Shown here: in pieces, positions 33,081-59,845 of the stretch
Layout of the letters: every line of letters starts with the position of its first letter
How positions within the stretch are numbered: the first letter of the stretch is position 1
Source of the DNA: Dorea sp.
Lineage (GTDB): Bacteria; Bacillota; Clostridia; Lachnospirales; Lachnospiraceae
Direction of reading: 5' to 3'
Assembly: GCA_022769185.1 (NCBI GenBank)
Contig: JALEKG010000090.1
Coordinates: forward strand, 1-64,000
DNA: 64,000 nucleotides
Translations under genes and position numbers: made by a program
Notes under the pieces: generated by a model
Told to the model about the DNA's origin: nothing
The model's database searches: none
What the model saw: only the letters and a program-made list of their open reading frames with translations

Positions 33081-33109
33081 TTGACATTTGCAGGAAAGTG
33101 CTGTATGCT
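33081..33109 (+). promoter_or_regulatory. Predicted promoter of the mgtE leader transcript
   Basis: TTGACA - 17 nt - TATGCT. Confidence 0.7.
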
Positions 33110-33142
33110 GAAAGTGTCCAAAAATAAAAAAGAAAGGAAGGT

Positions 33143-33241
33143 ATGTTTATGGACAGTAATTCGGATCGAAGTCGAAATATGATAATCGGATATAGAAACA
33201 CCATGGGATGCCTTCCGGGATTGATTTGTAAGAGTGATTAA
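33143..33241 (+). CDS. Putative 32-aa leader peptide upstream of mgtE
   Basis: GAAAGGAAGG RBS, ATG at 33143: MFMDSNSDRSRNMIIGYRNTMGCLPGLICKSD*; too short for the supplied ORF track. Confidence 0.6.
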   Translation: MFMDSNSDRSRNMIIGYRNTMGCLPGLICKSD

Positions 33242-33279
33242 GCTTTACTTCTGTTTCCAGAAAGGTTTTATTTTGCGTG

Positions 33280-33315
33280 CTGCTATATCCGAAAGGGATC
33301 TGGCAGTTTTTTTTT
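33280..33315 (+). terminator. Intrinsic terminator between leader ORF and mgtE
   Basis: CTGCTATATCC-gaaag-GGATCTGGCAG with one mismatch and one G-T pair, then T9. Confidence 0.85.
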
Positions 33316-33348
33316 GCAAAAAGTGAATGGAAACAGGAGGTAAAGAAA

Positions 33349-34680
33349 ATGGCAAAGAACACAATTTTAAATCTTTTGGAAAAGAAAAAGTATAAAGAAT
33401 TGAAAGAAAAGATGTCTGCTTACAATCCGGTGGATCTTGCCGAACTACTAGTAGAACTGGATGATAAAGAGCTTGCGATGGTGTTCCGCATGATTGATAA
33501 AGATGATGCGGCGCAGGTATTTTCTTATATGGATGATGACCAGCAGCAGACACTTCTTAATAGTTTCACAAGTAAAGAAATCAGGTACATTTTGGATTCC
33601 ATGGCTACGGATGATGCAGTAGATCTCCTGGAAGATATGCCTGCAAATGTGGTAAATCGGCTGCTCAGTCAGGTCAGTGCAGATACAAGAGCAGATATTA
33701 ACAGATTGCTGAAGTATCCTGAAGACAGTGCGGGAAGCATTATGACGGTGGAATATATTGATCTGTCACCGGATATGACGGTTCAACAGGCACTGGATAA
33801 GATTCGGAAAGTCGGGATTCACAGCGAAACGGTATATACCTGCTATGTTGTGGTCAGAAGAAAGCTTGTGGGAATTGTGACAGCAGAAGTGCTGATGACA
33901 AATGAGAAAGATACTCTGATCCGTGATCTGATGCGTGAAAATTTCATCTATATCCGAACGAGCGATGATCAGGAAGATGCGGCAAAATTATTCCGTAAAT
34001 ATGGGCTAATCGCGATACCGGTGCTGGATGATGAAGGTTATATTGTGGGAATCGTAACTTTTGATGATGCGATTGGAGTTCTGACAGAGGAGACGACAGA
34101 AGATATTCACAAGATGGCTGCCATGTCGTCCAGTGAGGATTCTTATCTGAAGACAACGGTATTTCAGCATGCAAAGAACAGAATACCCTGGTTGCTTGTC
34201 CTGATGTTCTCTTCTGTAATCACTGGTGCAATCATTACTAGATATGAAAATGCATTTGCAGCAGTGCCGCTTCTGGTATCCTTCATGCCGATGCTGATGG
34301 ATACTGGCGGAAATTGTGGATCCCAGAGTTCTACTCTGATCATTCGTGGTCTTGCGGTGGATGAATTGCATTTGTCGAATCTGCCGTCAATTGTATGGAA
34401 GGAATTTAGAGTGTCACTGGTAGTAGGGACAGTTCTTGCAGTAGCAAATGGAATCAGAATCTATCTGATGTATCAGAATGTGGAAATGGCAGTTGTGGTC
34501 GCGATATCTTTAATTGGAACGGTTATGGTGGCAAAGATGGTGGGATGTATGCTTCCGATTCTTGCTAAACAGATGCATTTTGATCCTGCAATTATGGCAT
34601 CCCCATTGATCACAACGATTGTAGATACCTGCTCTATTATGATATATTTTCGAATTGCAACGGTGGCATTCAGACTATAA
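33349..34680 (+). CDS. mgtE: Magnesium transporter MgtE
   Basis: MgtE N domain, tandem CBS, C-terminal MDTGGNCGSQSSTLIIRGLA; start 33349 has CAGGAGG RBS. Confidence 0.96.
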   Translation: MAKNTILNLLEKKKYKELKEKMSAYNPVDLAELLVELDDKELAMVFRMIDKDDAAQVFSYMDDDQQQTLLNSFTSKEIRYILDSMATDDAVDLLEDMPANVVNRLLSQVSADTRADINRLLKYPEDSAGSIMTVEYIDLSPDMTVQQALDKIRKVGIHSETVYTCYVVVRRKLVGIVTAEVLMTNEKDTLIRDLMRENFIYIRTSDDQEDAAKLFRKYGLIAIPVLDDEGYIVGIVTFDDAIGVLTEETTEDIHKMAAMSSSEDSYLKTTVFQHAKNRIPWLLVLMFSSVITGAIITRYENAFAAVPLLVSFMPMLMDTGGNCGSQSSTLIIRGLAVDELHLSNLPSIVWKEFRVSLVVGTVLAVANGIRIYLMYQNVEMAVVVAISLIGTVMVAKMVGCMLPILAKQMHFDPAIMASPLITTIVDTCSIMIYFRIATVAFRL

Positions 34681-58525: not shown

Positions 58526-59845
58526 ATGGCAAAATATAAAATTGTTCATTATCTGAATCAGTTTTTCGGAGGAATTGGTGGAGAAGATAAAGCAGATTTT
58601 GAGCCTGAAGTATGGGAAAAAGTGGTAGGACCGGGGCAGGCATTAAAAGCTGGACTGGGAGAAGATTTTGAAATTGTGGCAACGGTAGTATGTGGGGATA
58701 ACTATTTCGGAGAAAATCTGGATAAAGCGACAGATACAATCGTAGAAATGGTGAGAAAATATGAACCGGATATTTTTGTGGCTGGACCTGCATTTAATGC
58801 CGGACGTTATGGTGTGGCTTGCGGAACAATCTGTAAAGCAGTAGAAGAAAGGCTCGGAATCCCGGTTATTTCCGGCATGTATGAAGAAAATCCGGGATCC
58901 GATATGTTTAAGCAGGATGTGATTCTTGTTAAGACTGGAAATTCTGCTGCAACAATGAGAAAAGCAGTTCCTACATTTGTAAACCTGATTAAAAAGATGG
59001 TAACAGGAGAAGAGATTTTTGGACCTTCCATAGAGGGTTATCTGGAACGTGGTATTCGTGTGAATTATTTTGCAGAAGAGAGAGGCTCTGAGCGTGGGAT
59101 TCAGATGCTGATCAAAAAGATGAAAGGGGAAGAATTTCAGACGGATCTTCCAATGCCGAAATTTGATCGTGTATCGCCTGCAAAACCAATCACGGATCTA
59201 AAGTCTGCTAAGATTGCAGTTGTTACCTCTGGCGGTATTGTACCAGTGGGGAATCCAGATCACATTGAATCTTCCAATGCCACGAAATTTGGAGTATATT
59301 CCATCGAAGGAATGGAGGAAATGTCGAAAGAAGATTTCATGACAATTCATGGAGGCTATGACAGACAGTTTGTGCTTGAAAATCCAAACCTTGTTATTCC
59401 GCTGGATGTTCTTCGCAAGAAAGAAAAAGCGGGAGAGATCGGAGAACTGCTTCCGTATTTTGCAAGTACGACAGGAACTGGTACTGCAACCAATTCAGCT
59501 GCGAAATTCGGAGATGAAATCGGCAAGAAATTTATCGAGGAAGGTGTAGATGGCGTGCTTCTCGTCAGCACCTGAGGTACCTGTACCCGTTGCGGTGCAA
59601 CGATGGTAAAAGGTATTGAAAAATACGGAATTCCGGTGGTTCATCTTTGTACAGTTGTTCCAATTTCCAGAACGATTGGTGCGAATAGAATCATTCCGGC
59701 AATTGGTATTCCTTATCCACTGGGCGATCCAACACAAGGAGAAGAAGAATCATACAAAATACGTGAGAAACTGGTGACAAGAGCACTGAAAGCGCTTGAA
59801 ACACCAATTAAGGATCAGACGGTTTTTGAAAAGGATGAGTGGTAA
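58526..59845 (+). CDS. grdB: Glycine/sarcosine/betaine reductase component B, selenoprotein gamma subunit (GrdB/F/H-type), 439 aa with Sec at TGA 59573-59575
   Basis: Track ORFs 58526-59575 and 59603-59845 are in one frame; junction reads LLVST-U-GTCTRCGATMVKGIEKYGIPVVHLCTVVPIS (UxxCxxC motif). Confidence 0.94.
59584..59608 (+). promoter_or_regulatory. Bacterial SECIS-like hairpin
   Basis: TACC CGTTGC-ggt-GCAACG at GGTA, 8 nt after the TGA; apical loop ~19 nt after TGA. Confidence 0.75.

Follow-up and report, generated by a model that had tools for sequence, protein, structure and literature searches.

The stretch of DNA analysed here, referred to below as the window, comprises 64,000 nucleotides of a Dorea sp. 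contig (JALEKG010000090.1) and includes the Mg2+ transporter gene mgtE together with the upstream elements collected in Table 1. An earlier note on this DNA had pointed out a promoter and an intrinsic terminator before mgtE, and both are present in the sequence as it described them. The note had also read a leader ORF of 32 codons at 33143-33241. This ORF exists; however, its start has to be moved. The Shine-Dalgarno (SD) sequence lies only 1 nt from the ATG at 33143 but 7 nt from that at 33149, and all relatives have their start at the position matching the latter, so that we take 33149 as the start of a 30-codon ORF, whose peptide begins MDSNSDRSR. No match was obtained in a Pfam search with the 32-residue peptide. 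An Rfam search at the gathering and at a relaxed threshold detected no family over the leader, which bears out the note's remark that no M-box is recognizable here. The leader folds with a z-score of -2.9.

Elsewhere in the window, an ORF at 58526-59845 requires one UGA to be translated as selenocysteine (VSTUGTCTRCG) in order to stay open, and looks like the B subunit of a glycine/betaine reductase; a match to SECIS_4 (RF01990) lies within it, at 59576-59613.

Table 1. Elements of the mgtE upstream region in the window
Element	Position	Strand	Details or basis
Promoter TTGACA-17-TATGCT	33081-33109	+	TTGACA 33081-33086, 17 nt, TATGCT 33104-33109
SD of leader ORF, AGGAAGG	33135-33141	+	7 nt 5' of ATG 33149
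Leader ORF (uORF), 30 codons MDSNSDRSRNMIIGYRNTMGCLPGLICKSD + stop	33149-33241	+	Frame conserved in 14 leaders
Conserved codons 1-8 (M-D-x-x-S-x-R-S)	33149-33172	+	Invariant CGA 33167-33169, near-invariant AGT 33170-33172
P1 5' strand (SD and start codon)	33135-33151	+	Partner 33201-33217; cross-species permutation
P1 3' strand (protector), within leader ORF	33201-33217	+	Cross-species permutation
Antiterminator segment CGGATATAG, within ORF (codons 13-16)	33187-33195	+	Partner 33283-33291; pairing and folding tests
Intrinsic terminator, hairpin CTGCTATATCCGAAAGGGATCTGGCAG then T9	33280-33315	+	Hairpin 33280-33306, T9 33307-33315; sequence and hairpin energy
Possible second layer, segment pairable with mgtE SD region 33329-33345	33243-33257	+	Window only, minimum free energy (MFE) fold
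mgtE, regulated gene, 443 aa	33349-34680	+	Pfam MgtE_N, CBS, MgtE

Homologous leaders and conservation of the leader ORF

A DNA search gave a same-genus genome match in just one case. A search with the mgtE protein led to Faecalicatena contorta (L003) and Dorea phocaeensis (L004); in both, the leader can be aligned with that of the window at the ORF. Further leaders were sought with an alignment-derived pattern and a profile built from six leaders, the downstream gene being inspected by eye. This added L084, L089, L090, L095, L096, L104, L105, L106 and L141, as well as L140 from another family of the class. Homologous leaders precede mgtE in at least eight other genera (Faecalicatena, Dorea phocaeensis and six further, one of which belongs to that other family). 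As a control, the reversed pattern matched in a single one of 397 genomes, whereas the true pattern matched in 12; two of these 12 (L136 and L137) look like chance and were discarded, as were the pattern matches L085 and L146 (the latter without inspection) and R1 matches below about 20 bits, mostly chance occurrences inside genes. Further searches for members in more relatives produced no new leader. The gene downstream is mgtE in every relative except one orphan, L138. L138/L111 (G334) shows an orphan uORF copy and a terminator-like repeat with no mgtE within about 1.2 kb downstream, and is possibly a remnant. G001, G340 and G162 have a second mgtE paralogue (about 51% identical), before which inspection revealed no such leader. 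Upstream of mgtE in L006 (1886-1974) and L007 (1887-1975), a GA-cis RNA (RF02987, function unknown) lies directly adjacent to the gene. Our genome sample is limited and only 98 mgtE loci were considered, so that prevalence can be given only roughly.

The nearest relatives L003, L084, L004 and L089 carry a matching promoter (TTGACA or TTGACT, 17 nt, TATGCT or TATACT) 39-53 nt from the uORF start, and an SD is found at the equivalent place in all relatives' leaders. Conservation of the ORF, which the earlier note had left to be checked, is clear: in 14 of 14 leaders the frame that begins at the SD-preceded start contains no stop until the P1 3' strand is complete or nearly so, while nearly all other frames contain stops. 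In L106/L141, from a single genus, ATG is replaced by TTG, which is still a start codon. A G-R-S motif occurs at codons 3-5 (L157), 12-14 (L062/L073) or 16-18 (L158), always in frame. By inspection of the aligned sequences, codons after 8-9 evolve freely except in the pairing segments. Constraint at the protein level was noticed only in the first codons, so that conservation does not extend to the whole peptide.

Alternative pairings and the predicted switch

Two helices involving the leader ORF are conserved. P1 is formed by the SD and start codon with ORF nucleotides ~53-80 and so hides the leader's own SD and start. In nine diverged leaders, P1 strands paired with their own partners total -147.6 kcal/mol, against -104 +/- 9 for swapped partners, a value reached in none of 20,000 permutations. 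The conserved competing helix is P1 and not the anti-antiterminator (33184-33190 with 33214-33222) suggested in the earlier note, which is kept only in L003. Two other candidates were rejected: ATTCGG (codons 4-6) with TCGGAT as an anti-antiterminator, for which covariation is unsupported (p=0.30), and a TTCG-GNN-CGAA hairpin, which is broken in L105, L106 and L138. No inner fold of the P1 loop was consistent across the leaders.

The antiterminator pairs ORF nucleotides ~38-58 with the 5' arm of the terminator. As the earlier note had observed, TCGGATATAG (33186-33195) and CTATATCCGA (33283-33292) are exactly complementary, and this pairing is maintained in relatives: over 13 leaders, antiterminator energy beats cross-species permutation with p=0.00085. 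Compared with codon-shuffled ORFs, it is favorable in the window alone (p=0.04) and in seven leaders (p 0.004-0.1). In the close subgroup alone the swap test is not significant (p=0.12), because the element itself is nearly invariant there. Permutation tests used one representative per group, yet related leaders, which share ancestry, were treated as independent. The leader has two of the marks of a leader-peptide attenuator: a translatable short ORF with an SD upstream of the gene, and a mutually exclusive antiterminator and intrinsic terminator, with the antiterminator within reach of the ribosome.

We modeled the effect of ribosome position by equilibrium folding with an assumed 14-nt ribosome front; these calculations do not describe kinetics. 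The predicted terminator probability in the window is 0.98 for the ribosome-free leader, 0.01 with CGA codon 7 in the A site and 0.96 with a ribosome at the stop codon, and the full switch was reproduced in 0 of 150 codon-shuffled window ORFs. When the ribosome position is scanned, the window's terminator comes on as the ribosome passes from codon 9 to codon 10. Of 13 leaders tested, 10 flip either on the first CGA itself or no more than about five codons beyond it (the window, L003, L084, L104, L106, L141, L009, L020, L066 and L171). The flip moves along to 6/7 in L066, whose CGA is codon 6. L089, L010 and L015 are terminated at the CGA at equilibrium, and the folding model gives no equilibrium switch in L089, L096, L004, L010, L015, L029 and L043; in several of these non-switching leaders, antiterminator formation is predicted to precede synthesis of the terminator 3' arm. 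The earlier note had considered the direction of control to be undetermined by sequence alone, but the folding model does predict one: a ribosome held at codons ~2-9 leads to readthrough, whereas absence of a ribosome or completion of the ORF leads to termination. P1 and the antiterminator scarcely overlap in the window, so that how P1 would block the antiterminator is not fully explained.

A long inverted repeat (the second-layer segment of Table 1 and its partner) could hide the mgtE SD after readthrough. This sequestration is strong in the MFE fold of the window but absent in L003; we therefore rejected it as a conserved element and retain it merely as a possible extra layer.

Acidic residues, CGA codons and M-boxes at mgtE loci

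Scanning about 100 mgtE loci for short SD-preceded ORFs reveals a wider family. Residue 2 is acidic in 13 of 23 mgtE uORF groups against 3 of 54 elsewhere (p=2e-6). Among the groups are peptides beginning MDTDHYRR and MDSDNYRR (Lachnospiraceae), MDPDHSRR (Faecalibacterium), MDNPRRR, MDSCDSRS, MDAGSS...GRS and MDDHIRR, and several of these leaders also have P1 and strong antiterminators. Within 750 nt upstream of mgtE, an SD-preceded M-[DE] uORF with CGA as its first Arg codon is present at 44 of 98 loci, against 1 on the reverse strand; in long ORFs at these loci, CGA accounts for 7.8% of Arg codons. Although CGA is the first Arg codon in all 38 uORFs collected, 19 of these were found mainly through a motif containing CGA. 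A cleaner figure is provided by strong-SD uORFs selected only by acidic residue 2, of which 33 of 39 have CGA first; by peptide group the count is 6 of 8 (p about 5e-6 at the 7.8% background, the grouping being crude). Exceptions use AGA (three Faecalibacterium and L042), AGG (L022 and L058) or, elsewhere, AGG/CGG. CGA is a slow codon in a bacterial his-leader assay (PMC4046918).

The window's leader lacks an aptamer matched by the M-box covariance model, and no M-box (RF00380) was found anywhere in its genome. In other leaders, M-boxes are the only Rfam family encountered, and only in some cases. In some relatives an M-box replaces the uORF leader; in others it stands in tandem with it, as at the orthologous mgtE of G009 (65% identical), where an M-box is followed by a uORF of the CGA kind. 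Two stacked control elements of this sort, M-box and CGA uORF, precede mgtE in L110 (G009, 619-1136) and L106 (G042, 1275-1600), whereas G005, G020 and G025 have M-boxes followed by uORFs without CGA. M-boxes occur before P-type ATPase genes (L142 and L144) and mgtE (L143); they are followed there by SD-preceded, CGA-less uORFs starting MTDSQSQN, MEDEWNSR and MESGSSPS in L142, L143 and L144, respectively. Since the uORF leader is both replaced by and arranged in tandem with a Mg2+ riboswitch, Mg2+ is the most likely signal. This is an inference that replacement and tandems strengthen; sensing has not been shown, and a second, different signal would also explain the tandems.

A putative leader-peptide attenuator of mgtE

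The Clostridial leader appears to work like a leader-peptide attenuator and most resembles mgtQ and MgtL; it is not an M-box, which controls mgtE/mgtA in Firmicutes and occupies the same place in relatives. Like Salmonella mgtQ-mgtB, the window has a uORF before a Mg2+ transporter gene, an acidic codon 2 and stems 1:2/2:3 overlapping the uORF; however, mgtQ affects mgtB translation in an intergenic region and does not act through an intrinsic terminator (PMC8092293). Asp2, Glu5 and a ribosome in stem region 1 of mgtQ favor mgtB expression (PMC8092293), and a ribosome in stem region 1 is likewise the state predicted to favor expression in the window. Salmonella belongs to a different phylum, and no sequence homology with mgtQ was shown. 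Enterobacterial mgtL-mgtA (MEPDPTPLPRRR...) likewise combines an acidic N-terminal leader peptide, a Mg2+ importer and premature termination, but relies on a Rho-dependent terminator and ribosome drop-off instead of an intrinsic terminator, P1 and an antiterminator (PMC11282234). The window shows one mark of the MgtL/mgtQ type, in that a leader ORF preceding a Mg2+ transporter gene has acidic residues among its first codons (D2 and D6), but lacks another, the close spacing of these residues (side by side or one apart, as in the EPDP of MgtL); a D-x-D does occur in the Lachnospiraceae and Faecalibacterium uORF groups. Faecalibacterium relatives start MDPD, a likeness to mgtL. In E. coli mgtL (L174, 2132-2185), too, the first Arg codon is CGA, which may be a coincidence.

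The trp, his and erm stalling attenuators share with the window the 1:2/2:3/3:4 alternative pairing and a stall site just upstream of the antiterminator, but the uORF lacks consecutive codons for an amino acid made or imported by the operon, and the regulated gene encodes an ion transporter. Other signals are reported for the Salmonella mgtCBR leader. The mgtCBR tandem attenuators are described as short leader ORFs of a Mg2+-transport operon that are expected to switch stem-loops, as in the window, but with two ORFs and other stems (PMC3641672). The Thioalkalivibrio mgtE motif is likewise a candidate cis-regulatory RNA before mgtE; however, it is a structured RNA including the gene's own SD and AUG, with no uORF described, and is found only in Thioalkalivibrio (PMC11109978).

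That the complementarity arose by chance, the region holding merely the upstream gene's ordinary terminator and some untranslated sequence, is hardly credible: the 10-nt complement alone is just p about 0.04 in one sequence, but conservation in relatives, P1 covariation and the switch tests contradict this reading. A riboswitch-like RNA, with a conserved loop binding a ligand and the ORF incidental, seems improbable. P1 does close a loop with near-invariant nucleotides (TGGAN..T..T...G..CGAAGT), and CGA and AGT are conserved at the nucleotide level; however, the frame is selectively open with start and SD kept, the distance of the motif from the start varies but always in frame (L157, L158 and L062), CGAAGT is replaced by CGACGA, CGACAA or CGATCA in other groups, and the P1 loop lacks a consistent inner fold. 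We hold it rather unlikely that the same attenuator responds to another signal, such as charging or supply of the tRNA-Arg reading CGA or a general slowing of translation, Mg2+ uptake being one output. Such a signal would fit the strong CGA preference (38/38 collected, 33/39 strong-SD), and tandems make sense if M-box and uORF each sense something different. Yet there are usually one or two CGA codons only, unlike in amino-acid attenuators, mgtE is the downstream gene throughout save for the orphan, and we know of no link between mgtE and arginine.

It is possible, if doubtful, that ribosome drop-off rather than pausing is what counts, low-Mg2+ ribosomes leaving within the acidic first codons by intrinsic ribosome destabilization, as reported for MgtL (PMC11282234). 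Residue 2 is acidic in nearly all leaders, and the MDPD of Faecalibacterium recalls the MEPD of MgtL. However, the ribosome-free window leader is predicted to take the terminator form (P 0.98), so that drop-off should turn mgtE off unless the antiterminator forms first; as to which event is productive, the folding model favors the pause.

A translation-coupled attenuator of mgtE had been proposed in the earlier note, and the proposal is supported: none of the computational outcomes that it had named as refuting (loss of the ORF or of the pairing in relatives, a known riboswitch over the region) was met. We consider it likely that pairing is of the trp type and that slow early elongation, most likely at low Mg2+, brings about antitermination. 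P1 would represent 1:2, the antiterminator 2:3 and the terminator 3:4. Without a ribosome, P1 would shut the leader SD and start, the terminator would form and mgtE would be off; were the whole ORF translated, the ribosome would cover the antiterminator and again leave mgtE off. A ribosome slowed in the first ~9 codons, by acidic codon 2 and the poorly read CGA codon 7, would have its front edge just short of 33187; it would thus prevent P1 from closing, and the antiterminator could take the terminator 5' arm, allowing transcription into mgtE. The likeliest signal would be low cytosolic Mg2+, slowing or destabilizing ribosomes on acidic N-termini as in enterobacterial MgtL and mgtQ; acidic early residues are known to destabilize or pause ribosomes (PMC11282234). 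The parts, their conservation and the structural logic are computed, while the pausing of a ribosome there, the productive role of that pause as opposed to drop-off and the identity of Mg2+ as the signal are inferred; the model has no expression, probing or ribosome data behind it. Only as a tentative conjecture do we suggest a codon-specific sensor in a widespread class of Clostridial leader peptides, in which an acidic N-terminus followed by CGA (read by inosine wobble) near codon 7 would make early elongation Mg2+-sensitive, so that decoding of a single codon would report cytosolic Mg2+ and gate mgtE through intrinsic-terminator attenuation, replacing or backing up the M-box.

No description of this Clostridial leader was found in the literature searched, which did not cover subscription papers, and an mgtE leader-peptide attenuator of Clostridia is apparently undescribed. 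Control of mgtE in these bacteria is usually assumed to rest on the M-box. Our results suggest that gut Clostridia, Faecalibacterium among them, have an independent and widespread form of the leader-peptide Mg2+ control known from enterobacteria. The preferred CGA sits where a paused ribosome would free the antiterminator, and thus offers a probe of ion sensing by ribosomes; the annotation of many mgtE leaders in public genomes could be revised accordingly.
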